Origin: Pseudomonas hefeiensis
GTDB lineage: Bacteria; Pseudomonadota; Gammaproteobacteria; Pseudomonadales; Pseudomonadaceae
Direction of reading: 5' to 3'
Length of the DNA: 64,000 bases
NCBI RefSeq assembly: GCF_030687835.1
Contig: NZ_CP117449.1
Location: forward strand, 3,472,001-3,536,000
Part shown: positions 48,901 through 63,854 of the stretch, piece by piece
How positions within the stretch are numbered: the stretch's first letter is position 1
Layout of the letters: each line of letters opens with the position of its first letter
The notes under the pieces: generated by a model
Told to the model about the DNA's origin: nothing
Database searches by the model: none
Seen by the model: only the letters and a program-made list of their open reading frames with translations
Program-made: the position numbers and the translations under genes

Positions 48901-48939
48901 GGAATATTTAGCTTTGAGCACATTTAGCATTGAGCTAAA
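48874..48939. promoter_or_regulatory. Three repressor operators (OR-like)
   Basis: 17-bp sites at 48874, 48907 and 48923 share TTTAGC and a partly symmetrical GCTAAA half, near consensus TTTAGCTTNGNGCTAAA. They lie between the divergent cI-like and cro-like genes. Confidence 0.72.
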
Positions 48940-48958
48940 CGCTGGCATTCTTGCCCGC

Positions 48959-49795
48959 ATGGATATTTATGCGATTCGTAAACAGCAACTGATCAGCCTC
49001 ATAGGCAGCCAGCGAAAAGGCGCGTGCGCCGAGCGCTGGGGAATGGCGCCTGCGCATCTGAGTCAGATTTTGTCGGACAAGACTGCGAAAAATTTGGGAG
49101 ACGACGTAGCTCGGAGAATCGAGGCGATCGAGGGACTGCCTAGAGGTTGGTTTGACTCCATATCGCCAGGTGAGTCGATGAATCCAGGCGACGAGCTTGC
49201 TTCGGGCGAACACTTAGGTGAGGCATCCGTACAGACCGCGGCGGACCAGATAAAGCAGATGCTTTCGAAGGTCAAAGGGTTAACAAGCACCGCTCGTGAC
49301 AGGATCATTGCGGCTGCTGACGAGACGAGCAACGTCATAACCGTCGACTTCTCTCGCCCCGGCCAGGTTGGTGATGAGGTATGGATCGCGCATTACGACG
49401 TTCGCGCTGCGATGGGCGGCGGGCAGATCCCGCACGAGTACCCGGAAATGCTTCAGGACATTAGGGTCAGTCCCAAACATCTGCGCGAGATGGGCGTCAC
49501 GTTCAAAGAACACTTCCACCTCAAGATGATCACCGGGTGGGGCCAGTCGATGGCCCCGACGATCAAGGATCGCGACCCGCTGCTCGTCGACATCACGATC
49601 CGGGAGTTCACAGGCGACGGCATCTACCTCTTCTCCCACGACGACATGCTGTACGTGAAGCGCCTGCAGAAGAAAGGCAAGGAGCGCTTCAAGATGATCT
49701 CGGACAACAAGCACCACGACCCAGAGGACATCCGGGTGGACGACACCCACATCCTGGCCCGGGTGCTTTATGTATGGAACGGACAACCGGTGTGA
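48959..49795 (+). CDS. CI-like repressor (XRE HTH + S24 peptidase)
   Basis: A 278-residue protein with an N-terminal helix-turn-helix (CAERWGMAPAHLSQILSDKT) and a C-terminal S24/LexA-like peptidase domain with ITGWGQSMAP (Ser) and LYVKRLQ (Lys). RecA-stimulated self-cleavage would induce the prophage. ATG 48959 fits homologues; a TTG at 48914 is in frame. It faces the YdaS-like gene across three operators. Confidence 0.9.
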   Translation: MDIYAIRKQQLISLIGSQRKGACAERWGMAPAHLSQILSDKTAKNLGDDVARRIEAIEGLPRGWFDSISPGESMNPGDELASGEHLGEASVQTAADQIKQMLSKVKGLTSTARDRIIAAADETSNVITVDFSRPGQVGDEVWIAHYDVRAAMGGGQIPHEYPEMLQDIRVSPKHLREMGVTFKEHFHLKMITGWGQSMAPTIKDRDPLLVDITIREFTGDGIYLFSHDDMLYVKRLQKKGKERFKMISDNKHHDPEDIRVDDTHILARVLYVWNGQPV

Positions 49796-50136: not shown

Positions 50137-52134
50137 TTGACCATGGATTTTGTCGCCCGAGACTTTTCTGGATCTAACACCATCACGCACAGTGGTATCA
50201 CTAAACATTTCAAGAATGTTGAGCCTTGGCAAGCACTCGCCGAACTTGTTTGGAACGGTCTAGACGCCGGAGCAACAACCGTCCAGATCGACATTGAAAG
50301 TACGGAAATAGGTGGTACTTTTTCCGTTACTATTTTGGATAATGGCACTGGCATTAATATTGATAAGCCAGACGAAAATTTTCGCAGATTCAACGACTCA
50401 TTAAAAAAAGATTCTTTCGACTCTCATGGGTCTCAGGGACGGGGTCGACTCGCCTTCCACAAAATATGTCATAGTGCGACATGGTATACTCGTTTTGAGG
50501 GAAACGATGCTCGAATTGTAGTGCTGAGTAGTAATCTCAGCGCAGTTGATGGCAGAACCATTCAGCAAGATGAGCAGCATTATCTGCTCTCGAATTTTAA
50601 GTCTGGCACATGCGTCACTCTGACAAGCTTTGAAAAAAATCTCCCAACCGACAGTTTTCTAATAAAAGAGTTTAGCAAAGAATTTGGACCGCATCTTGTG
50701 CTGATGCCGGAAAAAACAATCACTATAAATGGCATTAAAATTCTACCGCAATCGCACATAAAAACATCAATTTCCATAAAAACAAACTCTGCAATATTTG
50801 AAGTAGACTTGGTCCAGTGGAATGAGAGGCCGGGCACGGAAAAATCTTATCTGTACTTCATATCCAGCAAGCTGAAAACGATTTACAAGCAATACAGCAG
50901 CCTAAACAAGAAAAGAGACTATTACACTTCCGTCTTTATCAAATCTTCTTTTCTTGAGCGCTATGTCAAAGAAGATGACAGCTTATGCGAGCCGTTTAGC
51001 TCTTTCTTGACGTCCGAAGACTTCCGGATACTCATTAGAGACTTGAATGCATTCTTGAGGCACTGTTATGCAGAATTCCTCGTAGGTAAAGCACAAGAGC
51101 AAATTGACGCTTTTGAAAAAGCTGGTGACTTTCCAAGTTATGAGGGGCTTGACCATAGCGAGTCTACATGGCGCTTATCTCATGTTAAAGAGATCGTTAA
51201 AGCCGTACTAATTAGAGAGCCAAAATTATTCGTCGGCGGGAATAAAACCCAGCGCAGACTGATAATAAGATTATTAGACAGACTGTCAGTTTCAAACGAA
51301 AATAGTGGCATATTTGATGTACTCGAAAGCGTACTTAATCTGGATGCCGCAGCCATGACCCAGCTTGCAAGTCAGCTAAAGAAGACAAAACTCGACAACA
51401 TCATCCAAACAATTGAATTACTGCAGCATCGCGAGTCGGCAGTTAGCCAGCTTAAGGAAATCATGAACATTCATTACAAAGATATCCTTGAGACTCCTGA
51501 CTTACAAAAGGTTATTGAAAATAACACTTGGCTATTTGGCCCCGCATACGAAATACTTGGAGCGGAAGAGGATACATTCACAAACACGGCAAAAAATCTA
51601 CGATCTAAAATAAAAAATATCAATGAGGTTGCTATCGAGGATTTAGCCAGCGACGTAGAGATCGACGGAGCTAATAGACAAGTAGATTTACTTCTAATTC
51701 GAAAAAAATTACAACTCGATGCAAGGGGCCGTAAATTTTTCAGATGCGTGATAGTCGAGATCAAGCGACCAGGGGTATCACTGAACAACAAACATCTGCA
51801 GCAACTTGATGAATACGCATCAATTTTAAGTCACTACCCTGAATTTAATAGTGATCTTACGAGATTTGAATTAATTCTAGTAGGACGCAACATATCTAAA
51901 GAAGCCTATTCCATCCACAGCAGGCTGAAAACTTCGCAGTTGTACGGCGAGCCCGGCCTTGTAACAAGTGACGACAAAATAAAAACCTATATAAAAACTT
52001 GGCCAACCATTTTTGATGAGTTCGAAATCAGCAATGACTACTTACTAGACCAGCTGAAAACTCAGCGGGCCTCACTGTCATCCTCCTCGAAAGAAGAGCT
52101 TCTCGAAAGTCTTCAAAAAGAGACAGCACAATAG
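50137..52134 (+). CDS. GHKL ATPase fused to a Shedu-like PD-(D/E)XK nuclease (candidate defence gene)
   Basis: The 665-residue protein has an N-terminal Bergerat-fold ATPase: ELVWNGLDAGA (Glu36, Asn40, Asp43), DNGTGI (68-73) and GSQGRGRLAF (98-107), as in MutL/Hsp90/MORC-type GHKL enzymes. The C-terminal part has a DUF4263/Shedu-like nuclease with NNTWLFGP, VDLLLIRK (Asp517) and VIVEIKRPG (Glu541, Lys543). A TTG at 50137 fits GAGG eight bases before; ATG 50143 is alternative. The gene is strikingly AT-rich, lies between cI and the second operator cluster, and should be expressed in lysogens. Anti-phage defence is inferred from domains and place. Confidence 0.85.
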   Translation: MTMDFVARDFSGSNTITHSGITKHFKNVEPWQALAELVWNGLDAGATTVQIDIESTEIGGTFSVTILDNGTGINIDKPDENFRRFNDSLKKDSFDSHGSQGRGRLAFHKICHSATWYTRFEGNDARIVVLSSNLSAVDGRTIQQDEQHYLLSNFKSGTCVTLTSFEKNLPTDSFLIKEFSKEFGPHLVLMPEKTITINGIKILPQSHIKTSISIKTNSAIFEVDLVQWNERPGTEKSYLYFISSKLKTIYKQYSSLNKKRDYYTSVFIKSSFLERYVKEDDSLCEPFSSFLTSEDFRILIRDLNAFLRHCYAEFLVGKAQEQIDAFEKAGDFPSYEGLDHSESTWRLSHVKEIVKAVLIREPKLFVGGNKTQRRLIIRLLDRLSVSNENSGIFDVLESVLNLDAAAMTQLASQLKKTKLDNIIQTIELLQHRESAVSQLKEIMNIHYKDILETPDLQKVIENNTWLFGPAYEILGAEEDTFTNTAKNLRSKIKNINEVAIEDLASDVEIDGANRQVDLLLIRKKLQLDARGRKFFRCVIVEIKRPGVSLNNKHLQQLDEYASILSHYPEFNSDLTRFELILVGRNISKEAYSIHSRLKTSQLYGEPGLVTSDDKIKTYIKTWPTIFDEFEISNDYLLDQLKTQRASLSSSSKEELLESLQKETAQ

Positions 52135-53646: not shown

Positions 53647-53728
53647 CGCATCGGGGTATGCCTTGCCCAGCCCATTGCCCCGATGAAAGCCTGGGGACGC
53701 AAGTGGCGACAGGGCATACCCCGATGCG
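53647..53728. repeat. 16-bp perfect inverted repeat in the leader of the first DGR target
   Basis: CGCATCGGGGTATGCC (53647-53662) is complementary to GGCATACCCCGATGCG (53713-53728), 50 bp apart and 30 bp before the target ATG. An mRNA stem-loop or attenuator is possible. Confidence 0.8.
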
Positions 53729-53757: not shown

Positions 53758-54339
53758 ATGCAAGCAACCCAACTGACCACCTACACCCGTGGCGACCTGA
53801 TGATTAGCAGCCCTGACGAAGCTGTTGTGCTGAAGCTGGCAACCCTGGCTCTCAGCGTCAATACAGCACCAACAGACATCGCAACCCCGAACATCGGCGA
53901 ATACTGGCCCGGCCAGGGCGGCGTGTATGTGGGAATCCGGCACTACCCGGACGGCCCTCACCACCTGATCGTCGGCACTGAAGATCTCGGAAGGTTCGCC
54001 TGGGGCGAATACGGAACCGAGACAGGCGCCACGAGCCGCACCCACGGCATCCTGAACACCACCACCCTCCTTGAGGCTGATGGCTCGTTTCCTGCTGCCG
54101 AGGCAGCGGCCAACTACACCGCCGACGGTCACCACGACTATGGGCTTCCTTCCATCGGTGAGCTCAACCAGGTGTGGCAGTGCGCGCCAGACCTGATCAC
54201 TGAAGGCGCCTACTGGTCGAGTTCGCAGCGCTCCGCCAACTACGCGTTCTTCATGGACTTCGATGATGGCGATCAGAGCATCAGCGGCAAGAGCCTCGAG
54301 CTCCGCGTCCGCCCCGTCCGCAGATTGCCTATTCATTGA
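53758..54339 (+). CDS. DGR target protein 1 (DUF1566/C-type-lectin-like variable protein)
   Basis: A 193-residue protein; AAGGA sets the ATG at 53758. The middle, GEYWPGQGGVYVGIRHYPDG, is shared with target 2. The last 35 codons are the variable repeat (54223-54326), with EGAYWSSSQRSA before and ELRVRPVRR after the hypervariable residues, the layout of lectin-fold DGR display proteins. No signal peptide or fibre motif. It lies 7.8 kb from the template, in the early operon. Ligand unknown. Confidence 0.88.
   Translation: MQATQLTTYTRGDLMISSPDEAVVLKLATLALSVNTAPTDIATPNIGEYWPGQGGVYVGIRHYPDGPHHLIVGTEDLGRFAWGEYGTETGATSRTHGILNTTTLLEADGSFPAAEAAANYTADGHHDYGLPSIGELNQVWQCAPDLITEGAYWSSSQRSANYAFFMDFDDGDQSISGKSLELRVRPVRRLPIH
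54223..54326 (+). repeat. DGR variable repeat 1 (VR1)
   Basis: Matches the template repeat except at 13 positions, all adenine in the template. The invariant 3' end CTCCGCGTCCGCCCCGTCCG is the GC-rich initiation-of-homing-like segment. Confidence 0.93.
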
Positions 54340-54541
54340 TCCATTTATTGCTTTTTATCGCAGGTGAATCGCGGTGCTGCTCAGGTACGAGTGGCAAGGC
54401 CTGATACATGCCGGGCAGTGCCGGCCACCTGCAACCCTCCCCCGACCAATCCCGCATGCACATGACACCGCGCCCAACGGCAACCAGCGGAAGGATCGTG
54501 TGCAGCCGGAATTTGTTGGATCAACCACAGAGGAAACCAGC

Positions 54542-54829
54542 ATGTGCAATTGCGCAACCGAAGTTGAAGCGGCAGCAAAAGAAAAGATTCGCGCCAAGCT
54601 GCCAGAAGGCTCCCGCGATTTCTCCGTCGAGCTGCAAGGGTTCGCCTGGCTTATGGGCGGCACCGTGAGCATGAAGAACAAGCTGAACCTGCACATTGAG
54701 TACGAGGTGCCCAAGAAGAAAGTCGATGGGTTCCAGCGCAAGAAGCAGGACATGTCGATGCTCGGCAGCTACTGCATGTTCTGCGGCGAGAAGTACGACA
54801 AAGACGAGCCGGAAGTGGAAGCCGCCTAA
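54542..54829 (+). CDS. Small protein with cysteine pairs
   Basis: A 95-residue protein with MCNC at the start and YCMFCGEKYD near the end, a possible zinc site. GAGGAAA precedes the ATG. Unrecognised. Confidence 0.6.
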   Translation: MCNCATEVEAAAKEKIRAKLPEGSRDFSVELQGFAWLMGGTVSMKNKLNLHIEYEVPKKKVDGFQRKKQDMSMLGSYCMFCGEKYDKDEPEVEAA

Positions 54830-54850
54830 CCCCAAACACTGGAGGCGACC

Positions 54851-55096
54851 ATGGCAACCAGCTATGCAGACAGCGCCCAGGCCAGGGCATGGGACCGACA
54901 CTTCGACGAAATGGGCCGTCCGCGCCCAACCCACAAAGACCTCTACCACGACTACGACGCCTTGCAGGCCCGGGCCAAGCTGACAGCCGAGCAGCGCGCT
55001 TTTGAAGTCGCTCACAGAAAGGAAATGGCGATTCGCATAAACGCGGCGGTCGATCAGATCGCTGAATTTTGGGGCCTGGAGGTAAAGAAATCGTGA
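54851..55096 (+). CDS. Small early phage protein
   Basis: An 81-residue charged helical protein, with GGAGG before the ATG. First of a tightly overlapping chain of small genes. Unrecognised. Confidence 0.6.
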   Translation: MATSYADSAQARAWDRHFDEMGRPRPTHKDLYHDYDALQARAKLTAEQRAFEVAHRKEMAIRINAAVDQIAEFWGLEVKKS

Positions 55097-55314
55097 GTGC
55101 TCACTCCATTGCAATTCACCGCATTGAGACGGAACCGTTTGCAATCCCAACCTCTTTACTGCCCGTGCTAACCGCAGACAGGGCGCGTATGGCGGCAATT
55201 CTCGCGGAAGAGCTTTCCGCGATTACCACCAGCGAGCGCGACTCCTATCTCAAGCAAATTGGCGCTGCTGAGCTAACCAGGTATGTCGAGCTTTTGCCAA
55301 GGGCTGCAGCATGA
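55093..55314 (+). CDS. Small early phage protein (GTG start)
   Basis: A 73-residue protein; GGAGGT sets the GTG, which overlaps the previous stop by 4 bp. Unrecognised. Confidence 0.6.
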   Translation: MSAHSIAIHRIETEPFAIPTSLLPVLTADRARMAAILAEELSAITTSERDSYLKQIGAAELTRYVELLPRAAA

Positions 55315-55502
55315 GCCCTCACATCCTGATCGACGAGGCGCTGGAAAGCCTGGAGCACCCCGACAGCCCTCCAGGTGCCGGAAAGGTTGTGCTGCACATG
55401 ATCACCAAAATGATGGAAGGCAGCGCCATCACAGTTGAAGAGTTCAACCACTACTGCAAGCGCCTCCTGAAAATCACCAGGCAGCGCAAGGAGGCGTCAT
55501 GA
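55311..55502 (+). CDS. Small early phage protein
   Basis: A 63-residue helical protein (MSPHILIDEALESLEHPDSP), overlapping both neighbours by 4 bp. Unrecognised. Confidence 0.6.
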   Translation: MSPHILIDEALESLEHPDSPPGAGKVVLHMITKMMEGSAITVEEFNHYCKRLLKITRQRKEAS

Positions 55503-55669
55503 GTACTGCACCGGTTAAAACGCTGCTGGATGAGCAGCTCGAAGAGATTGAGCGCAGCCTTGCGATAGTAGGCGCTGGCATTCCGCGTGAGCTGCCTGTT
55601 GTCGTGCTCCCGCCCAAGCTGGTAGCGGCGATCAAGTCGGGGCGTATCGCAGTGAGGGCCAAACAATGA
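55499..55669 (+). CDS. Small early phage protein (56 residues)
   Basis: Starts MSTAPVKTLLDEQLEEIERS after AAGGAGG and overlaps both neighbours by 4 bp. Unrecognised. Confidence 0.55.
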   Translation: MSTAPVKTLLDEQLEEIERSLAIVGAGIPRELPVVVLPPKLVAAIKSGRIAVRAKQ

Positions 55670-55785
55670 AGTGCCTCTACTGGATCCTCGGCGCCTCCAT
55701 CCTCATGACCATGCTCGCCTACACCGTGGTCAGCGAAAGGTCGGCATCCTGCAGCGTACCGCAACTGTCCCAGGTGCTGAGGTGA
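55666..55785 (+). CDS. Small membrane protein (39 residues)
   Basis: MKCLYWILGASILMTMLAYT forms one hydrophobic helix; a short polar tail follows. Coupled on both sides. Unrecognised. Confidence 0.5.
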   Translation: MKCLYWILGASILMTMLAYTVVSERSASCSVPQLSQVLR

Positions 55786-55898
55786 CTGCCCGTCAGCGGG
55801 CCCGGCGCTTGCTGATCTGGCGCGGGTCGTTCTCGGCCATCACCTTCTGCACTCTCATGATGCTGCTCAGCGCCCTCGCCGATCGCATCACCCAATAA
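55782..55898 (+). CDS. Small membrane protein (38 residues, GTG start)
   Basis: A basic N-terminus followed by one hydrophobic segment (FSAITFCTLMMLLSALAD). The GTG overlaps the preceding stop. Unrecognised. Confidence 0.45.
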   Translation: MTARQRARRLLIWRGSFSAITFCTLMMLLSALADRITQ

Positions 55899-55941
55899 AC
55901 AACACCACCAAAAGCTGCGCTCGGCGCGGCAAGGAATCGTC

Positions 55942-57072
55942 ATGTCCGCAAATGCCAAACAAGCCGCCGTATCGACCGAACTGGAAGCGAGTGAAACCGG
56001 CGACACAAAGAATGCTGTTGCTCCTGCAGTTGCCGTCACCGATATCGCCGAGTATCGACCACATGAAGAACAGATTGTCCGTCTGGAAACGACCTACGCG
56101 AACCTGGTTGTCGACTGCTCTACCAGTGAAGGCCTGGCGAATGCTAAGGAGGTTCGCGTTGATATTCGCGATGTCCGCTATGCCCTGGCCAATACCACGA
56201 AAACGGCGCTGATTCCCTATCAGCAGGCGGTTAAGGACGCCCAGGCTCGCGTCAACCAAGTGAAGGAATTCGGTGAAGCGCTGAAGGATCGCGTGCTGGC
56301 GATCGAGGCGCCTGTTGACGAAGCGATTAAGGCCGAAGAAAAGCGCGCCGCTGACGCCAAGGCCGAACGCGAGCGTGTCGAGGCTGAGCGTGTCGAAGCC
56401 ATCCGGGCAAAGATTACCCGATTCGGTTCAGTCGCTGCTGCATATGCAAGCCGAAGCGCTGCCGACGTCGAAAACGTCCTGAAAAACGTCAAGGAGTCGG
56501 TGATCCTGCCCCAGGAGTATGCCGAGTTCGAGGCTGAGGCGACCATCGCTCGCGACAACGCTATTGAGCAGCTTGAGACCCTCCACAAGGCTGCAATTGA
56601 TCGAGAAGATGCCGCCGCCAAGCTCGCCGCCCAGCAAAAAGAACTGGACGAACTGCGCGAGAAGCAACGTATTGCTGACGCCGAAGCCGAGGAATTGCGC
56701 AAGCAACGCGCCGAAGAAGACCGCCTGCGCTTGAAAAAACAGCAGGATGAACTCGACCAGCAGCGCCGCGATATGGAAGCGCAGCAGCGCCAGCAGCGCG
56801 AACGCGACGCACAGTATCAGCGTGACCAAGAGGAACTGGCCCGCCTGCGCGCACTGGCTGCTGCACCCGCTCCGGTGGCGAACGTCATCACGGCTCCGGT
56901 GGTTGCCGACGCAGCGCCAGCGGTAATGGCGGAAGTTGATACAGCACCACTGGCGGGCGCACTCGCTGACTCGAACATGCCGAGCGCCAGCGAAGTGGTC
57001 GAGGTCGTGGCCATGGCCTTCTGTGTCACCAATGACGAGGCTTCGGCCTGGCTGCGCACCCTATCGTTCTAA
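55942..57072 (+). CDS. Coiled-coil protein of the recombination operon
   Basis: A 376-residue protein dominated by Glu/Arg/Gln-rich coiled coil at residues about 125-300, with an Ala/Pro-rich linker and a short C-terminal domain. It precedes RecT and the exonuclease, so it probably works with them; DUF1351-like proteins occur in the same place. No catalytic motif. Confidence 0.65.
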   Translation: MSANAKQAAVSTELEASETGDTKNAVAPAVAVTDIAEYRPHEEQIVRLETTYANLVVDCSTSEGLANAKEVRVDIRDVRYALANTTKTALIPYQQAVKDAQARVNQVKEFGEALKDRVLAIEAPVDEAIKAEEKRAADAKAERERVEAERVEAIRAKITRFGSVAAAYASRSAADVENVLKNVKESVILPQEYAEFEAEATIARDNAIEQLETLHKAAIDREDAAAKLAAQQKELDELREKQRIADAEAEELRKQRAEEDRLRLKKQQDELDQQRRDMEAQQRQQRERDAQYQRDQEELARLRALAAAPAPVANVITAPVVADAAPAVMAEVDTAPLAGALADSNMPSASEVVEVVAMAFCVTNDEASAWLRTLSF

Positions 57073-57127
57073 AGAACCCTGAAATCACCCCGGAGGCCGA
57101 CCACAGTCGTCGGCTATGGAGTAAGTA

Positions 57128-58108
57128 ATGAACGCTCAAACCCAGGTTGCTACCGTACCAATGGACACCAGCCCAACAGGGCTGATCCTCAACCGCGACA
57201 GCATGCAGTCGATGACCGAACTCGCGGGCATCATGGCGGGCGGCAAAACCACTTTGCCGAAACACTTTCACGGAAACACGGCTGACTGCATGGCGGTGAT
57301 CATGCAGTCCATGCAGTGGGGCATGAACCCATTCCAGGTGGCGCAAAAGACATTCATCGTCAACGGTGGCCAGCTCAGCTATGAGGCCCAGTTGGTCAAT
57401 GCGGTTATCACCACACGAGCGCCGACCCTTGATCGAATCCATTACGACTGGTTTGGCGACTGGGACAAGATCATTGGCAACTTCCGTGAAATTGAAAGCA
57501 AAAAGCAAATGGATGACCACGGCCAGCCGAAGAAGTACCGCGTCCCAAACTGGAACATAAACGACGAGAAAGGGCTTGGCGTCCGCGTGTGGGCTACGTT
57601 CATAGGCGAGGACACCCCGCGCGAACTGATCACCTTGATGACTCAGGCGCGCACCCGGAACTCGACGCTATGGGCGGACGATCCAAAGCAGCAGATCGCG
57701 TACCTGGCCGTCAAAAAATGGGCTCGCCTGTATTGCCCTGACGTGATCTTGGGCGTGTACACACGCGACGAGCTGGACGACGGCTACGCGCTACCTGAAA
57801 CAGATGTTACCCCGAGATCTACCAACGAAAAGCCAGCAGACGTGGGCGCCGCGTCAGTTCCTCAGGGCGATACAGCCGACGCAACCACTGACCTATTCGA
57901 GCAGTTGAAAAAGATCGCTCAGGAACAGGGTATTGAGGGCTACGAAAAGGCCTGGAAGGCGCTGAAGCCTCAGCAGCGCGGCGCCATTGGCGTAACTCGT
58001 CACGGCGAACTGAAGACGATTGCACAGACCATTGATGCGGAGTTCACGACCGTCAACGAGAACGCAGACGTTGATTCTGAAAGCGATCAGCAAGGAGGCA
58101 ATCAATGA
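57128..58108 (+). CDS. RecT-family single-strand annealing protein
   Basis: A 326-residue protein with HFHGNTADCMAVIMQSMQWG, MNPFQVAQKTFIVNG and QLSYEAQLVNAVI, the conserved RecT/Bet region. The C-terminal third is linker-like. It overlaps the exonuclease start by 4 bp, forming the exo-bet-type pair for recombination of linear phage DNA. Confidence 0.9.
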   Translation: MNAQTQVATVPMDTSPTGLILNRDSMQSMTELAGIMAGGKTTLPKHFHGNTADCMAVIMQSMQWGMNPFQVAQKTFIVNGGQLSYEAQLVNAVITTRAPTLDRIHYDWFGDWDKIIGNFREIESKKQMDDHGQPKKYRVPNWNINDEKGLGVRVWATFIGEDTPRELITLMTQARTRNSTLWADDPKQQIAYLAVKKWARLYCPDVILGVYTRDELDDGYALPETDVTPRSTNEKPADVGAASVPQGDTADATTDLFEQLKKIAQEQGIEGYEKAWKALKPQQRGAIGVTRHGELKTIAQTIDAEFTTVNENADVDSESDQQGGNQ

Positions 58109-58773
58109 GCGCCGCCGTAGATCTTCAGCGCACGGAGCAGTGGCATCAGGACCGCAGCGGTCGCCTAACAGCAAGCAGGTTCAAGGATGTGATTGCGTGG
58201 GGGGATCGCGACAAGCATGGCAAGCGCAAACCACTTGCTGCCCGCACCACCTATATGCGCGAGCTGGCATTTGAACGGCTGGCTAACAGGTCGAAACATT
58301 CGGTCAGTAGCAAGTCGATGGCCTGGGGCACCGAGGTTGAGCAGTCGAGTCATGACTTTTACGAAATCCTGACCGGAAATAACGTCATCAAGTCGGGCTT
58401 TGTGGTTCACCCAAAGTACGACTGGCTAGGCTGTTCACCGGACGGCTTGATTGGTGAAGACGGGGGCATTGAGTCGAAGTGTCCATTCAATGAGGCCGTC
58501 CACGTTCGCACCTGGCTCGAAGGCATGCCCGAGGAACATAAGCCGCAGGTTCAGGGCTGCATGTTCGTCACGGGCCGGGAATGGTGGGATTTCCTGTCGT
58601 TCGATCCGCGCCAAGATGAAGACTGCCGCCTGTACATCGAAACCATTAAGCGAGATGACGAGTACATCGCGATGCTCCATCAAGAGCTGGTCCAGTTCAA
58701 TCTGGAGCTTGGCCGGATGGTTGATGAGGTCGCCGACAAAGCGCGGGCGCAGGCCCATAGATTAGGAGCTTGA
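58105..58773 (+). CDS. YqaJ/lambda-exonuclease-type nuclease
   Basis: A 222-residue PD-(D/E)XK nuclease with RLTASRFKDV, GTEVEQSSHDFYE, GCSPDGL (Asp113) and IESKCP (Glu123, Lys125). It should resect double-strand ends so that RecT can load. Confidence 0.92.
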   Translation: MSAAVDLQRTEQWHQDRSGRLTASRFKDVIAWGDRDKHGKRKPLAARTTYMRELAFERLANRSKHSVSSKSMAWGTEVEQSSHDFYEILTGNNVIKSGFVVHPKYDWLGCSPDGLIGEDGGIESKCPFNEAVHVRTWLEGMPEEHKPQVQGCMFVTGREWWDFLSFDPRQDEDCRLYIETIKRDDEYIAMLHQELVQFNLELGRMVDEVADKARAQAHRLGA

Positions 58774-58775
58774 TC

Positions 58776-59294
58776 ATGATCAGCCCAGAACTCAGCACCA
58801 TCCGCCAAAAGGATCTAGATCGCGACTGGATCGCCCGCGCCACGGCGGAATTTGAAAGCCGTGGCACCTTAGAAACACTACCTGTGCAGGCCCGCGACGC
58901 TGACTTCGGCGTGATGTTCAACGGCAAAGCCCGTGACGGCACACGGGCCGAACCCAACCCCTCCCTGGAATCCAAGGTTGCGGCAGCAGCACCAACCCTG
59001 ACTGTCACTGAGGCCATGAAGACGTTTCACCTCAGCGAGAGCGACTTGAAGCGCATGGCAACTCGCATGGGCTTCAAGTTCAAGCGCGGATACACCACCA
59101 ACCAGGGCCACAAGGCTACCGACGGCCCGATGGTTGAGCGGATCACTGCCTTGCGCGACGTAGGCCTGAGCCGGTCCAAGGTCATGAAGCAGATCGGCAT
59201 GAGCTACGAGAAATTCCACCGCCTGCTCAAGGACTACAGCATCGTTTTCCCGGCGCTGCCGTTCCACTTGCGCAACGGGAAGTTGAAGTCTTGA
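58776..59294 (+). CDS. Phage helix-turn-helix protein
   Basis: A 172-residue protein with two helix-turn-helix-like parts (MKTFHLSESDLKRMATRMGF; VGLSRSKVMKQIGMSYEKFH). GGAG sets the ATG at 58776. Possibly a regulator or nucleoid-binding protein. Unassigned. Confidence 0.6.
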   Translation: MISPELSTIRQKDLDRDWIARATAEFESRGTLETLPVQARDADFGVMFNGKARDGTRAEPNPSLESKVAAAAPTLTVTEAMKTFHLSESDLKRMATRMGFKFKRGYTTNQGHKATDGPMVERITALRDVGLSRSKVMKQIGMSYEKFHRLLKDYSIVFPALPFHLRNGKLKS

Positions 59295-59620
59295 AGCGAT
59301 CCGCATCTCGCACCCAACAACGCAAACGACAGACCTGGCTGGCACTGCCGGCCAGCGGAATCGAAGGAGCAGGCCATGGCCGAAACACAACAGCCAACTG
59401 CGGAAGCGCTCAAGCAGCGCCGAAAGCGCGAAAAGGCAGCGGCGAAGGTTGCCGCCCTGGGCATAGAGAAGCTCACGGTTTAGGTGGCCGGGGTGTTCAA
59501 GTCGGACCTCAAGCGGGTCATGGCAGCGCATGGCATCAACAATCAGCAGGACATTCACCAGCGGCTGCTGAAGAACCTGATCAGCGCCGACTTCGAAACG
59601 CAGGAGTGGATGCTGCGTAA
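59291..59620 (+). CDS. Possible coupled ORF with a QTWLALPA motif
   Basis: A TTG start overlaps the previous stop; the first 21 residues (RKRQTWLALPA) resemble those of the frame at 60127. Most of the remaining frame shadows the next gene, so only the N-terminal part is credible. Confidence 0.25.
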   Translation: MKRSASRTQQRKRQTWLALPASGIEGAGHGRNTTANCGSAQAAPKARKGSGEGCRPGHREAHGLGGRGVQVGPQAGHGSAWHQQSAGHSPAAAEEPDQRRLRNAGVDAA

Positions 59621-59735
59621 TGTCACGACACCTTATGAGCCAAGCGAAAAGGTGTCGCGAGCATTTTACGAGAAGAGCATGGCCGAGCTATCGGCGGATC
59701 CGGGGGGCGAGATAATCGCGCCGGATCGTCAATAG
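59376..59735 (+). pseudogene. Early phage gene interrupted by an in-frame TAG
   Basis: Starts MAETQQPTAEALKQRRKREK after GGAG, meets TAG at 59481-59483, and continues in frame as VAGVFKSDLKRVMAAHGIN to a TAG at 59735. The downstream part alone could start at GTG 59484. The upstream and downstream codons together look like one 119-residue protein with one nonsense codon. Confidence 0.6.
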
Positions 59736-59744
59736 TTCGCGAGC

Positions 59745-59891
59745 TCAGTCGGCTTCAACCGCGACCAACAAATCGCCTTCATCGTCAGTCAGGTCGAACT
59801 TATCTTCCGCAGCGATTTTTGCCTCCGACTCACTGTCGGCGACAACCGTACCCAGATTCTTTCCTTCGAGATAAATGCGCCACTCTTTCAT
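59745..59891 (-). CDS. Small acidic protein on the opposite strand
   Basis: A 48-residue protein starting MKEWRIYLEGKNLGTVVADS, with a strong GAGGAG site. The only leftward gene within this part of the early operon. Unrecognised. Confidence 0.55.
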   Translation of the reverse strand: MKEWRIYLEGKNLGTVVADSESEAKIAAEDKFDLTDDEGDLLVAVEAD

Positions 59892-59893
59892 TG

Positions 59894-60130
59894 ATGCTCC
59901 TCTACCCGGCCCCGTGCCGGTCACCCGTAATACCCCAACCCAAACCAAATTTCCACCACCGAGCACCACAGAAGCTCCGCGCCCAGCGCGACAAGATAGC
60001 GCCTCGGATGCGGGAGCTGGCAGAAGCCGGAAAAACAATAAGCCAGATAGCCGTCGCTCTAAAGATGGACATCAAGCGCGTACATCTGATTGGCTGGGAA
60101 AACGAATTCACTTTCGCCAAGTCGCCATGA
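59894..60130 (+). CDS. Small helix-turn-helix-like protein
   Basis: Up to 78 residues; the conserved-looking part is MRELAEAGKTISQIAVALKM (ATG 60009), a helix-turn-helix. The true start may be 60009. Its stop overlaps the next ATG. Confidence 0.5.
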   Translation: MLLYPAPCRSPVIPQPKPNFHHRAPQKLRAQRDKIAPRMRELAEAGKTISQIAVALKMDIKRVHLIGWENEFTFAKSP

Positions 60131-60372
60131 AGAGAATTAACAAGCAGGTGCACCAGCGGCGCCGGCAAACGTGGCTGGATCTGCCAGCTCAAACAATCCC
60201 GAGGGAAACCCATGAAGCCCGAAATGATTACCCTGAAGCACGGCGACGCCACGATCAAGATGCCGGCGTCTTCTCTAGCGAAGATCGCCATGGCCAGCAC
60301 GTTTGCCGTGGTGTTCCCGCAGGCGGCGAATGTTGCGCCAGCGGCGCCCACCACCATCCCTGCCCTGGGTGA
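60127..60372 (+). CDS. Possible coupled ORF with a QTWLDLPA motif
   Basis: The ATG overlaps the previous stop by 4 bp; MKRINKQVHQRRRQTWLDLP resembles the N-terminus at 59291. The rest overlaps target gene 2 in another frame and is probably not coding. Confidence 0.25.
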   Translation: MKRINKQVHQRRRQTWLDLPAQTIPRETHEARNDYPEARRRHDQDAGVFSSEDRHGQHVCRGVPAGGECCASGAHHHPCPG

Positions 60373-60805
60373 ATACTGGCCCGGCCAGGGTGGTGTGAAC
60401 GCCGGCTTCGTGTCGGCATGCGGCGATGTACCGGCCCACTACCTGATTATTGGCGACAAGGATCTGGGTGAATTCAAGTGGGGTCGGTACCGCGAGGAGT
60501 CAGAGGCAACCAGCAGGTGGGACGGCAAGCTCAACACCGACGCGCTGATCGCGGCTGGAGACCATCCAGCAGCCAAAGAGGCTCGGGCGTACACCGCTGA
60601 CGGACACGTGGACTTCGACCTGCCAGCAGCCGCTCAGCTGTACCAAGTCTGGGTGCATGGCCTGATCGCCGAGGGTGCCTACTGGTCGAGTTCGCAGCGC
60701 TCCGCCAACTACGCATTCTACATGTACTTCGTTGATGGCAATCAGTACAGCACCGTCAAGAGCTACGAGCTCCGCGTCCGCCCCGTCCGCAGATTCTTTA
60801 TTTAA
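60212..60805 (+). CDS. DGR target protein 2 (DUF1566/C-type-lectin-like variable protein)
   Basis: A 197-residue paralogue of target 1, sharing LGEYWPGQGGVNAGF, YTADGHVDFDLPAAAQLYQVW and EGAYWSSSQRSA. The last 35 codons are VR2 (60692-60796). Its N-terminal 50 residues differ from target 1. GAGGG precedes the ATG. Binding role inferred from the lectin-like variable domain. Confidence 0.88.
   Translation: MKPEMITLKHGDATIKMPASSLAKIAMASTFAVVFPQAANVAPAAPTTIPALGEYWPGQGGVNAGFVSACGDVPAHYLIIGDKDLGEFKWGRYREESEATSRWDGKLNTDALIAAGDHPAAKEARAYTADGHVDFDLPAAAQLYQVWVHGLIAEGAYWSSSQRSANYAFYMYFVDGNQYSTVKSYELRVRPVRRFFI
60692..60796 (+). repeat. DGR variable repeat 2 (VR2)
   Basis: Identical to the template repeat except at 10 positions, all adenine in the template; several AAC codons have become TAC or AGC. 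The match extends one base further than in VR1. Confidence 0.93.
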
Positions 60806-60838
60806 TCCTTCATTCATCCGTTCTTGATCCGGCACCGG

Positions 60839-60857
60839 GGCGCAGCAGCGCCTTTTT
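60839..60857 (+). terminator. Hairpin with T-run after target 2
   Basis: GGCGC and GCGCC pair around AGCA, followed by TTTTT. It may end transcription or be the cruciform often found after DGR targets. Confidence 0.65.
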
Positions 60858-60882
60858 GCTGCCTTCAAAAAGAGGAAAGACC

Positions 60883-61503
60883 ATGTCCGCAGTAGCTAAA
60901 GCAGCACCAGCAATAACCATCCCGGAAATCGGCCAACCCTTCGGCGGCGGGTTCTTCTCGGGCATCACCCGCGACCCGGCCACTGGCAGGCGCTATCTGA
61001 ACATCACCGCCGGTGCCGAGCATGAGCTGGTCGGCGCCTGGGGCAAGTACGGCGAAAAGATCGAGGGTGCCAACAGCTTCACCGACAGCCTGGCGAACAC
61101 TGAGGTCATGGCCGCCGCTGGCAGCGAACTGGCGCAAAAGGTCCTGACTCTGGATATCGGCGGCTTCACCGACTGGGCGATCCCGGCCCGCGACATGCAA
61201 GAGCTGCAGTATCGCCACTTCAAGCCGACCACCGAAGAGAACTGGCAGTACGGGCGCAGCGGTGACAACCCGAACAGCGAGCCGGTTGGCCTGCTGTACA
61301 CCGATGAGTCGCCAACCCAGACCGGCATCGAAGCTTTCCAGGAAGGTGGCCCTGAGGCGTTCCAGGATCGCGCCTACTGGTCGAGTTCGCAGCGCTCCGC
61401 CTACTTCGCATTCTACATGCTCTTCGGTGATGGCAGTCAGTACTACTACGGCAAGGACTTCGAGCTCCGCGTCCGCCCCGTCCGCAGTCAATTGATTGAT
61501 TAA
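60883..61503 (+). CDS. DGR target protein 3 (DUF1566/C-type-lectin-like variable protein)
   Basis: A 206-residue protein; GAGGAAA sets the ATG at 60883. Its N-terminal two thirds differ from targets 1 and 2 (TIPEIGQPFGGGFFSGITRD, GGFTDWAIPARDMQELQ), with a DUF1566/Lcl-like pattern, but it shares AYWSSSQRSA and the ELRVRPVR end. VR3 is at 61387-61487. It directly precedes avd. Confidence 0.88.
   Translation: MSAVAKAAPAITIPEIGQPFGGGFFSGITRDPATGRRYLNITAGAEHELVGAWGKYGEKIEGANSFTDSLANTEVMAAAGSELAQKVLTLDIGGFTDWAIPARDMQELQYRHFKPTTEENWQYGRSGDNPNSEPVGLLYTDESPTQTGIEAFQEGGPEAFQDRAYWSSSQRSAYFAFYMLFGDGSQYYYGKDFELRVRPVRSQLID
61387..61487 (+). repeat. DGR variable repeat 3 (VR3)
   Basis: Matches the template except at 15 positions, all adenine in the template. 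The most changed of the three. Homology ends at CGCAG, three to four bases shorter than the others. Confidence 0.93.
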
Positions 61504-61517
61504 TTTGCTTATTTAAT

Positions 61518-61535
61518 CCGGCCGCTTGCGGCCGG
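61518..61535. other. 8-bp GC hairpin after target 3
   Basis: CCGGCCGC and GCGGCCGG with a TT loop, 30 bp after VR3 and just before the avd ribosome site. A candidate for the cruciform that supports DGR homing in known systems. Confidence 0.6.
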
Positions 61536-61556
61536 CTGCCCAAGGAGGGCGCGCCG

Positions 61557-61913
61557 ATGGCGATGCATACGGAGTTGCAGATCTACAAGGTTTCGATGGG
61601 CCTACTCCAGATGGCCACGAACCTGACACGGAACATCCCCCGCGACCTGAAGCAGTCGCTTGGCAAGCGGGTGATTGATGAGTGCATCGACGTGCTGATG
61701 TTGATTGCTCGGGCCAACTCGACCCGGGACAAGCATCCACACCTGACCTCGCTGGTCGAGAAGGTCCAGGTGATCGAGTTCCTGATGCGGCTTTTCAAGG
61801 AAAGCCGATTCATCAGCATCCCGCAGCACGCCAAGGCCATCGAGGTCACCACCTCAATTGGCAAACAGGCCAACGCCTGGAAACGCTCCACCCCAACCGC
61901 GCCCGCCATCTGA
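61557..61913 (+). CDS. avd: DGR accessory variability determinant (Avd-like)
   Basis: A 118-residue, basic, all-helical protein with LKQSLGKRVIDECIDVLMLI and SLVEKVQVIEFLMRLFKESR, matching the Avd/four-helix-bundle family (also S23/IVP proteins). AAGGAGGG precedes the ATG. Avd pentamers bind the reverse transcriptase and template RNA. It lies between target 3 and the template repeat, the standard DGR order. Confidence 0.88.
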   Translation: MAMHTELQIYKVSMGLLQMATNLTRNIPRDLKQSLGKRVIDECIDVLMLIARANSTRDKHPHLTSLVEKVQVIEFLMRLFKESRFISIPQHAKAIEVTTSIGKQANAWKRSTPTAPAI

Positions 61914-62084
61914 GAGCCAAGGCTTTCAGGTCTGTGCGAATTGAATCTGGTCGTGCCGCTGACCTTCGGGTCACCGCCATGCGCACAAGAGATACCGCCG
62001 GTCTAAAGCGTCCGTGTAGGTCTCGCGCAGTTGTCTTGCTGATCGGCTTTGCCTTCGGCATGGCGACGTAGATAGCACGATAGG

Positions 62085-62189
62085 TCGCAGCGCTCCGCCA
62101 ACAACGCATTCAACATGAACTTCGATGATGGCAATCAGAACAACAACGACAAGAACAACGAGCTCCGCGTCCGCCCCGTCCGCAGATTC
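62085..62189 (+). repeat. DGR template repeat (TR)
   Basis: A 105-bp, AAC-rich repeat between avd and the reverse transcriptase. In its first 101 bp about 31 adenines occur. It aligns to three variable repeats, which differ from it only at adenines. The 5' flank 61914-62084 has no gene and is probably part of the template RNA. Confidence 0.93.
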
Positions 62190-63285
62190 GAACGTTGGTC
62201 CCTACCCGTTCAGCGATCTGGTCCAGGCCTATTACGACTGCCGACGCTCCAAGCGCAACAGCGACAGTGCGCTGGCCTTCGAAATGGACCTGGAGCGAAA
62301 CCTGATCGAGCTGCACAACGACCTGACCGCCGGCACTTACCGGCCAGGCCGCTCCATTTGCTTCGTGGTCACCCGACCAAAAGCCCGGGAAGTCTGGGCC
62401 GCAGCTTTTCGGGACCGCGTCGTCCACCACCTGTTGTACAACCATGTGGCCCCGCGCTTCTACGCCAGCTTCATAGCGGACAGTTGCGCATGCATCCCCG
62501 GGCGCGGAACGTTGTACGCCGCCCAGCGCATTGAATCGAAGATCCGCGGCGCCAGCAAGAACTGGTCGAGGCCGATCTTCTACCTCAAGTGCGACCTGGC
62601 GAACTTCTTCGTCGCCATCGACAAAGAGGTACTGCGCCAGCAGTTGGCCGCCAAGATCACCGAGCCCTGGTGGTTGTCCCTGGCCGAACAGATCCTGATG
62701 CACGACCCTCGCGAGGATTACGAGGTGCGCAGCCCTGCCCATCTGTTCAACCGCGTGCCGCAGCATAAGCGCCTGACCGCTCAGCCCGCGCGCCTCGGCC
62801 TGCCCATCGGCAACCTGTCCTCGCAGTTCTTCGCGAACGTGTACCTGAACGCCCTGGACCAGTTCGCCAAGCACCGGCTCGGCGCCAAGCACTACATCCG
62901 CTACGTCGATGACTTCGTGTTCCTGCATGAGTCGCCGCAGCAGCTCAGCGCCTGGCTGGCAGAGGTGGAGTCCTTCCTGCCCAGCCTGGGCGCGAAGCTG
63001 AACCCGAAGAAGACGATTCTTCAGCCCGTGGATCGAGGCGTCGACTTCGTCGGGCACGTCATCAAGCCCTGGCGGCGTACCACCCGCAAGCGGGCGCTGG
63101 GCCAGGCACTGAAGCGAACAGCCGCGGCGCCTGCCGAGGATCTACGCGAAACCGCCAACAGCTACTTCGGCCTGCTCAGCCAGGCAAGCCACAGTGAAAA
63201 AGACCGGGCCGCCCTGGCTCGCGTCGTGTTGAAGCGCGGCCATGTCGTCAACGGTGCGCTGACAAAGACCTATCCAAGGAAATGA
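62125..63285 (+). CDS. DGR reverse transcriptase
   Basis: Up to 386 residues. It has the retroelement RT fold with KCDLANFFVAID (motif A Asp), GLPIGNLSSQFFANVYLN (from residue 225; the SQ form typical of DGR enzymes), and RYVDDFVF (YVDD at 260-263). The only in-frame ATGs before the conserved PYPFSDLV lie inside the template repeat (62125, 62128), so the N-terminus may be read from TR. It copies TR RNA with adenine-specific errors. Confidence 0.92.
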   Translation: MMAIRTTTTRTTSSASAPSADSNVGPYPFSDLVQAYYDCRRSKRNSDSALAFEMDLERNLIELHNDLTAGTYRPGRSICFVVTRPKAREVWAAAFRDRVVHHLLYNHVAPRFYASFIADSCACIPGRGTLYAAQRIESKIRGASKNWSRPIFYLKCDLANFFVAIDKEVLRQQLAAKITEPWWLSLAEQILMHDPREDYEVRSPAHLFNRVPQHKRLTAQPARLGLPIGNLSSQFFANVYLNALDQFAKHRLGAKHYIRYVDDFVFLHESPQQLSAWLAEVESFLPSLGAKLNPKKTILQPVDRGVDFVGHVIKPWRRTTRKRALGQALKRTAAAPAEDLRETANSYFGLLSQASHSEKDRAALARVVLKRGHVVNGALTKTYPRK

Positions 63286-63296
63286 GGGTATCCGTG

Positions 63297-63854
63297 ATGA
63301 AAAAACTATTCTGGCGCCTAGTCGCGAGGCTACTTGCTCGCCCGGCGATTTCTGGCTGGCTCACCCGCCGCGCCTACCAAACCCCGTATCAACACATCAT
63401 GTCAGCCGATGGCCAGGAGATGTATATGGGTCGATGGTGGCTGTTCAATCCCTACTCCAGGACGACGCACAAACCAGCGCTTTGGTGGTGCCCTTGGTCG
63501 CTCAGGATCCACCACATCATGCGTCCGGACGCTGATCGTGACCTGCACGACCACCCCTGGAATGCCCGGACGATCATCTTGTGCGGCTGGTATACGGAGC
63601 AGCGATTGCTTTCTAGCGATGATCCAGCACTGGCCGGCCTCAACGTCCCATCAAACGCCCAAGCCACGGAGTACATCGACCGCCGCCCAGGCGACACCGC
63701 TCAACTTCGGCACGGCGAGTACCACCGCATCGACCAGGTATCCCCCGGCGGCGTCATCACCCTCTTCATCACCAGCAAGTGGCGCGGTGACTGGGGATTC
63801 CTCGTAAACGGCGTGAAGGTGCCATGGCGCACCTACACCAATTCGGATAGCTGA
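63297..63854 (+). CDS. Cupin-like hypothetical protein
   Basis: A 185-residue protein with RDLHDHPWNARTIILCGWY and LRHGEYHRIDQV, histidine-containing beta-strand segments like a cupin. A hydrophobic N-terminus (LFWRLVARLLARP) may be amphipathic. It begins 12 bases after the reverse transcriptase stop. Function unknown. Confidence 0.6.
   Translation: MKKLFWRLVARLLARPAISGWLTRRAYQTPYQHIMSADGQEMYMGRWWLFNPYSRTTHKPALWWCPWSLRIHHIMRPDADRDLHDHPWNARTIILCGWYTEQRLLSSDDPALAGLNVPSNAQATEYIDRRPGDTAQLRHGEYHRIDQVSPGGVITLFITSKWRGDWGFLVNGVKVPWRTYTNSDS

Follow-up and report, generated by a model that had tools for sequence, protein, structure and literature searches.

An RT-15 RNA beside the template repeat of a three-target diversity-generating retroelement in a lambda-like Pseudomonas prophage

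Introduction

To our knowledge, and as far as the literature was covered, the priming of a diversity-generating retroelement (DGR) is known in detail only for phage BPP-1, whose element is arranged as mtd-avd-TR-Sp-brt, with a spacer (Sp) between the template repeat (TR) and the reverse transcriptase (RT) gene. Here, a DGR with one TR and three variable repeats (VRs) was analysed in a stretch of 64,000 nucleotides from Pseudomonas hefeiensis (NCBI RefSeq assembly GCF_030687835.1, contig NZ_CP117449.1, positions 3,472,001 to 3,536,000 of the forward strand), called the window below, with positions counted from its first letter. The interpretation that we favour, and consider likely to be correct as a whole, is that of a lambda-like-prophage DGR from a clade active in nature, in which an RNA of the Rfam family RT-15 clamps the TR from its 5' side in place of the 3' spacer of BPP-1.

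According to the available text of a 2026 paper (PMC12875486), the BPP-1 spacer recruits the complex of RT and the accessory protein Avd, and an internal spacer adenine primes the cDNA at the junction with the TR 3' end. Most of this spacer is covered by a match (2750-2882) to the Rfam family Phage_DGR (RF03022). The element described here is like that of BPP-1 in its Avd, its TR, its adenine-specific change, its RT and its phage setting. In contrast, BPP-1 has one annotated target (mtd, a tail protein), whereas the three found here do not include the J-like fibre gene; the structured RNA is RF03022, on the 3' side of the TR, in BPP-1, but RT-15, on the 5' side, here; and avd abuts the TR in BPP-1, with brt starting 144 nt after it, whereas a gap of 172 nt separates avd from the TR in the present element, whose RT begins within the TR.

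DGRs with several VRs per TR have been published, including one in Pseudomonas fluorescens WH6 that has two VRs (PMC3521204, available text), and published elements also share with the present one a TR that overlaps the RT open reading frame (group 3) and DUF1566 targets (PMC3521204, PMC6642488, available text). The same texts place Pseudomonas among the genera in which DGRs are more likely to be found, and they do not give RNA structure, unlike the present analysis. Retrons, arranged as msr-msd-RT, differ from this DGR in product, RT family and purpose. Multi-target DGRs as such are already known; the RNA arrangement is the new part and the one worth following.

Results and discussion

A DGR with one template and three targets

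The features of the locus are collected in Table 1. When the TR-VR alignment was redone by program over the shared core, 38/38 mismatches fell on TR adenines, and the counts for the three VRs were the same as those of an original prediction made from the sequence. The repeat positions given there (62085 for the TR; 54223, 60692 and 61387 for the VRs) were correct within a base or two, 62085 being the TR start if a shared T is counted. As the 100-nt core contains 31 A, the log10 probability of all 38 mismatches falling on A by chance is about -22. The homology to the TR extends over 103, 104 and 100 nt in VR1, VR2 and VR3, each of which makes up the 3' end of its gene (193, 197 and 206 codons, respectively), and a DNA search (E 0.001) of the 6.45-Mb genome, assembled as one contig, returned these four TR/VR copies and no further ones.

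Table 1. Positions of the features of the DGR and of its surroundings in the window.
Feature	Position	Strand	Basis
CI-like repressor, lambda-like order	48914..49795	+	phrog_4, phrog_6201
Target gene 1 (193 aa), DUF1566/Lcl_C-like C-terminus, VR1 inside	53758..54339	+	Open reading frame; Lcl_C 31.1 bits, under curated cut-off 34.9
VR1, 13 mismatches to TR, all at A	54224..54326	+	Program alignment
RecT-like annealing protein and exonuclease, DGR strand	57128..58773	+	phrog_561, phrog_149
Target gene 2 (197 aa), C-type-lectin-like C-terminal domain, contains VR2	60212..60805	+	
VR2, 10 mismatches to TR, all at A	60693..60796	+	Program alignment
Target gene 3 (206 aa), Lcl_C-like, different N-terminus	60883..61503	+	Open reading frame; Lcl_C 29.7 bits, under cut-off
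VR3, 15 mismatches to TR, all at A	61388..61487	+	Program alignment
avd, DGR accessory protein	61557..61913	+	PF22296 (bAvd) 50.1 bits, cut-off 40; phrog_3206 'Avd protein of DGR' 110.4 bits
RT-15 RNA (RF03018), 5' structured domain of the putative DGR RNA	61897..62087	+	175.7 bits, gathering 82; covariation
Helix 5' strand UGAAUCUG, just 5' of RT-15 closing helix	61942..61949	+	Alignment, covariation; 61943-61949 in minimum free energy fold
TR	62086..62189	+	Program alignment, genome DNA search, per-site homology profile
DGR RT, start codon 62125 or 62128 within TR	62125..63285	+	phrog_1423 E 1.7e-116; PDB 8ub7 E 1.4e-35
Helix 3' strand CAGAUUCG, 3' end of TR	62183..62190	+	Alignment, covariation; right border of TR-VR homology

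The Avd-like protein and the RT that had been proposed beside the repeats are indeed next to each other on the same strand, and the RT translation contains the predicted YVDD motif. Avd was under the cut-off of the NCBIfam model DivGenRetAVD (51.6 bits versus 80). The PHROG matched by the RT carries only the name 'Reverse transcriptase', the best PDB sequence match was 8ub7, which we take to be the BPP-1 RT, and a protein search with the RT recovered BPP-1 brt at 31.9% identity. Among the matches listed, the sole retron model was retron_St85, at 43.6 bits versus a cut-off of 235, and the RT was not assigned to a retron family.

The locus shows the features by which DGR membership was judged: TR/VR repeats that differ at template adenines, VRs in a C-type-lectin-like ligand-binding domain, the accessory protein Avd (PF22296 above its cut-off, and phrog_3206), a DGR-type RT, and ongoing change of the VRs with a stable TR, the last of these found in relatives and not in this prophage. 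The prediction of a prophage DGR in which one template serves three targets is thus supported, and the genus Pseudomonas named in it agrees with the named relatives.

The RT-15 RNA

The most informative feature of the locus is one absent from the original prediction, namely a structured RNA at 61897-62087, with a helix to the TR 3' end and an RT start within the TR. The match to RT-15 was full-length (model 1-192), with its 3' end falling on the first TR bases, and was accepted on a score over the gathering threshold together with the consensus structure. When 67 diverse sequences, chosen from loci with RT identity of at least 60% and without those too similar to one another, were aligned over the stretch between avd and the RT start, the Rfam structure had 91.9% of cells paired and double changes at 40/56 pairs. 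Its covariation was 0.320, compared to 0.131 for shuffled alignments and no more than 0.084 for slid positions. De novo folding of the same alignment gave 42 pairs, 30 of them with compensatory changes and all 5' of the TR, and no consensus structure 3' of the TR start.

Within the genus, RT-15 was over the cut-off in 30 of 398 genomes, with 35 hits that all covered the full model 1-192, and all 30 genomes carry the RT; in G193, the one RT genome without RT-15, the RT match is truncated and no TR was found by scan. When 8 genus loci were compared to all of Rfam, RT-15 alone was over the cut-off. The full model was also matched in 7/7 distant loci tested, with RT identity of 63-69% (Rugamonas, Aquitalea, Paraburkholderia, Aidingimonas, Ralstonia, Curvibacter and an unnamed proteobacterium).

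The RT motifs so named reportedly originate from Weinberg 2017. RF03018 is typed in Rfam as 'Gene; sRNA', whereas here it would be the 5' part of a DGR RNA whose helix partner sits beyond the 3' end of the model. Literature searches aimed at RT-15, Rfam and DGR RNA structure found no link between RT-15 and DGRs, and an earlier description is possible.

A helix between RT-15 and the TR 3' end

The strand UGAAUCUG is complementary to the TR end CAGAUUCG (Table 1). In the 67 sequences, this clamp helix had 91.8% of cells paired and a covariation of 0.213 compared to 0.088 in shuffles, none of which (0/500) reached it, and at most 0.090 when slid. At one outer pair, GC was found in 46 sequences, AU in 8, UA in 6, CG in 3, GU in 1 and UG in 1, with 2 unpaired. 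When 152 non-redundant loci were scored, 95 formed 8/8 pairs, 49 formed 7, 7 formed 6 and 1 formed 5 (144/152 with at least 7), by a strand rule that is tied to the TR end, tends to place the strand correctly and was devised with this helix in view; the counts made on alignments do not use that rule. This count leaves out 12 of the 164 loci to which 197 were reduced by collapsing exact duplicates, as being without the 5' motif: L174 and L138 carry UGAAUCUGG and were lost to the rule on the following sequence, L075, L129, L133 and L145 are without a TR by scan, and the other six have RT identity of 33-47%.

As a guard against post hoc choice of the helix, all 57,630 seven-pair helices in columns with <30% gaps were scanned. 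The clamp helix came 5th after overlaps were merged, the four ahead of it being all inside RT-15, and 1st of the 29,808 helices that join a strand before the TR to the TR or beyond, with a clear gap (1.06 versus 0.03). On the RT tree, both sides of a pair changed on 7 branches, four of them at one pair, for which about 0.4 would be expected from 12 and 11 changes on 300 branches.

Most of the change is at three outer pairs and is clustered by clade, as would be seen if two linked motifs had changed together by descent and the covariation were an artefact of relatedness. That explanation is highly improbable, as it has to account for all four Watson-Crick types at one pair, for the four double changes on single branches there and for the first rank of the helix among its alternatives. 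Moreover, in the window the clamp 5' strand lies past the end of avd and is not part of a coding sequence and, therefore, no protein constraint ties it to the TR.

The minimum free energy fold of the window sequence alone (371-nt region) holds the clamp (61943-61949/62183-62189), stacked on the RT-15 closing helix (61950-61956/62075-62081). A continuous strand of 14 nt (61943-61956) would thus pair by one half with the TR 3' end and by the other with the bases immediately 5' of the TR, leaving the TR as a loop between the two helices. In a per-site profile of 162 TR/VR pairs from loci with RT identity of at least 84% and with ATGATGGC at the RT start, homology begins sharply at TR position 1 (62086). 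For the near VRs it stops at position 100 (62185), and for the other VRs it extends up to about 103-104. These borders sit close to the two feet of the clamp.

The RT start within the TR

The RT frame of the window has a stop at 62116-62118, followed by ATG codons at 62125 and 62128, both in the TR, and apart from these two no ATG, GTG or TTG is present in frame between that stop and about 62234. Among the non-redundant loci that have a TR and whose RT identity is at least 73%, an in-frame ATG within the TR was found in 112/112 and an in-frame stop in the TR as well in 81/112, and in more distant loci (RT identity <73%) the ATG was found in 23/38 and the stop in 3/38. As translation of the RT starts inside the TR, the 3' spacer of BPP-1 is absent here.

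An ordinary DGR of the BPP-1 kind, with the 3' spacer hidden in the RT reading frame and RT-15 as an extra, was weighed against this and appears quite improbable. It has in its favour the 3' spacer of BPP-1 itself (PMC12875486, available text; a 144-nt gap in NC_005357) and a mild synonymous constraint at codons 22-31 of the RT. However, no Phage_DGR match was found in the window at E up to 1, and none was over the cut-off in 15 relatives (7 distant and 8 from the genus), whereas BPP-1 itself scores 104.7 bits. In 116 sequences with RT identity of at least 73%, the synonymous constraint in the RT frame had a ratio to expectation of 2.3-2.6 across the TR and of 1.02-1.56 past codon 31; being confined to the TR and about 10 further codons, it argues that no long structured spacer follows the TR. 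The hidden spacer was thus found neither by the RF03022 scans nor by synonymous constraint, nor by the consensus folding described above, which gave nothing 3' of the TR start.

The position of RT-15 between avd and the RT start, with the start codon in a helix-closed loop, would also suit a leader that only regulates translation of the RT, the helix hiding or exposing the start while the cDNA is primed elsewhere as in BPP-1. We regard this as unlikely, because RT-15 ends on the TR rather than on the RT start, because the partner of the helix is the right border of the TR-VR homology, and because the RT frame is open far upstream in many distant loci. In L108 it is open through all of RT-15, which therefore can be no simple leader there.

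Proposed mechanism

In the favoured interpretation, that of a TR clamped by RT-15, the RT-Avd complex would copy one template RNA with errors at adenines, and the cDNA would replace the variable end of any of the three lectin-like genes. RT-15, the TR and the start of the RT message would be one RNA, with the TR as a loop held between two stacked helices. The helix at the TR 3' end would set the start of the cDNA and the closing helix of RT-15 its stop, RT-15 doing the job of the spacer from the 5' side. As the RT start codon lies in the loop of the clamp, it is unlikely that one RNA molecule serves as message and template at once.

More tentatively, and with real doubt, the Pseudomonas/beta-proteobacterial branch of DGRs might prime in a retron-like manner, the UGAAUCUG strand on the template 3' end starting the copying, the helices of the loop setting the cDNA ends and translation of the loop competing with templating. 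Copying would then begin by a 2'-OH branch or a nick, not from a 3' spacer. The clamp 5' strand runs in the orientation that a primer would need, and the template base that follows falls within the TR.

Several observations weigh against the clamp and its proposed role. The minimum free energy of the 371-nt region is no better than that of shuffles (z -0.22), and RNAalifold itself did not choose the clamp helix in the 67 sequences. The central pairs (UCUG/CAGA) hardly vary, so that the covariation rests mainly on the outer pairs. On the RT tree, where parsimony leaves the placement of changes on branches partly arbitrary, the two sides of pair 6 changed 7 and 15 times and share 1 branch, those of pair 8 changed 8 and 22 times and share none, and at pairs 3 and 4 the 3' side changed 5 and 6 times, likewise without a shared branch. 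Sub-threshold RT-15 matches (26-29 bits, cut-off 82) were present in 3 genomes without the RT. In most loci with RT identity <73% (35/38), the RT frame continues open upstream of the TR, which makes a start within the TR uncertain in this group. The ratio of 1.66 at codons 22-31, just past the TR, makes a small 3' element possible. Finally, one sister pair of prophages (L190/L191) differs at 2 sites, neither of them an A, and the evidence of activity, drawn from comparison of sequences, comes from relatives and not from this prophage.

If RT-15 does clamp the TR, a large clade with its structure on the other side would represent an independent solution to DGR priming. It would also give a role to the RT-15 family of Rfam, provide a mechanistic bridge between DGRs and retrons, and yield an RNA of compact size (about 300 nt) that could be used for targeted diversification.

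Activity in related prophages

In 256 non-redundant TR/VR pairs from loci with RT identity of at least 73%, those of lower identity being left out, A sites were changed in 3503/7511 cases (46.6%) compared to 165/15529 (1.06%) at other sites, and 206/256 pairs were without any non-A mismatch. Non-A bases in which the TR of a relative differs from that of the window were carried by its own VRs in 1005 cases, whereas 19 had the base of the window and 16 another one. Therefore, the VRs are rewritten from the TR of the same element.

Sister prophages were compared as pairs of loci with an identical TR core and RTs at least 97% identical. Many such pairs are the same sequence twice and show no difference; in the informative ones, the 400 nt before the VR contained 0 mismatches and the RTs were 99.2-100% identical. 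L182 differed from L079 and L043 at 19 sites of the near VR (19 at A) and at 0 of the far VR, and L079 and L043 differed from L183 at 0 sites of the near VR and at 13 of the far VR (13/13 at A). Between L182 and L183, two prophages of one isolate by record number, 19/19 and 13/13 differences were at A. The corresponding figures were 18/20 and 16/16 for L051 and L052, two prophages of one genome, and 14/14 and 17/18 for L230 and L232. In L038 and L208, the flanks differ as well (96 and 11 mismatches in 400). As near and far VRs change separately, the targets are rewritten one at a time, in nature, in these close relatives. An absence of VR differences between related strains had been named as speaking against the predicted DGR; the VRs of sister prophages do differ, at adenines and with identical flanks, although in relatives and not in this prophage.

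Self-mutation of the TR as a general feature was rejected, as the listed TR haplotypes differ from the TR of the window at non-A as well as A sites. In L104 (P. resinovorans DSM 21078), much of the AAC tract of the TR is gone, as rewriting of the TR by its own cDNA would leave it.

A separate pattern was seen in the 162 TR/VR pairs of the per-site profile. The five core adenines that precede G (TR positions 4, 52, 67, 76 and 99) were almost never changed (0-3%), and the remaining core adenines changed at 20-86%, except those at positions 16 (6%) and 66 (3%). Either protein selection or sequence context could explain the sparing of adenines before G.

Distribution and number of targets

At E 1e-40 or better, 31 of 398 genus genomes contained the RT (36 loci). 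The RT was also present at 79 loci in named genomes, chiefly those of Pseudomonas and beta-proteobacteria, and in 285 viral contigs, 80 of which were retained. Two or three VRs were present in 174 of 197 loci, one in 8 and none, in the DNA covered, in 15; this set is redundant and includes the window and two phages. In the 119 non-redundant loci, restricted to those with RT identity of at least 55% and at least 9.9 kb of upstream DNA, 82 had two VRs, 34 three, 1 one and 2 none, so that 116/119 had two or three. VRs that are farther away or downstream would escape and, therefore, the counts per locus are lower bounds. Loci of the Pseudomonas type have two near VRs, at about -700 and -1400 from the TR, and the farthest VR is 3.0-9.5 kb away in 29 non-redundant three-VR loci with RT identity of at least 73%.

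The original prediction had described DGRs as a known class, which they are, and three targets as special, which they are not: two or three VRs are the rule in this clade, and multi-VR DGRs have been published. As a kind, the present DGR is real, ordinary and multi-target.

A TR-like pattern was found in 20/398 genomes, and 18/20 carry the RT. Lone VR-like copies without an RT match were present at G139:C1:3589309-3589390 and G326:C71:86352-86433; it is possible that these are remnants or targets acted on in trans.

Targets and prophage setting

The left part of the window contains genes for a J-like fibre, tape measure, portal, terminase and O-like replication proteins. Rightward from the CI-like repressor, the gene order is RecT-like protein and exonuclease, DGR and integrase, the last of these being 3.3 kb past the end of the RT gene and outside the window (L005). 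Repressor, replication, packaging, tail and integrase genes were thus found together, as in a lambda-like temperate phage, with the three targets and the DGR on the strand that runs from repressor to integrase.

Pfam matches of the targets were sub-threshold, and target 2 had no PDB sequence match. A tail-fibre role for the target products is disfavoured by the placement of the targets beside CI and by the absence of a VR from the J-like fibre gene in the genome-wide DNA search. The targets are not the tail fibre but three short proteins of DUF1566/lectin-like type encoded in the repressor-to-integrase operon, and they may be located in the virion, the lysogen or the cytoplasm.

The annotated relative phage Cruim01 has a similar order and three VRs. 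In phage D3, orf68, just after cI, encodes a related protein with 33% identity over 125 columns. Genes that resemble the VR3 region at the DNA level were also seen in PA5oct, D3, PMG1, Callisto and other phages; PA5oct, D3, PMG1 and Callisto are all absent among the matches listed for the RT (40 of 127).

Directly 3' of the RT, a cysteine-dioxygenase-like PHROG was matched at 63282-63854 (phrog_4786, 160.4 bits). Just 5' of target gene 1, at 53647-53728, there is a near-perfect 19-bp hairpin (fold z -6.85), for which Rfam gave only a sub-threshold, chance-level match. The repressor is followed at 50137-52134 by a gene for a 665-aa protein that had an HSP90-like ATPase domain (PF13589, 65.4 bits), only sub-threshold restriction/Shedu nuclease matches at its C-terminus, and no PADLOC match; this is possibly a prophage-borne defence gene.

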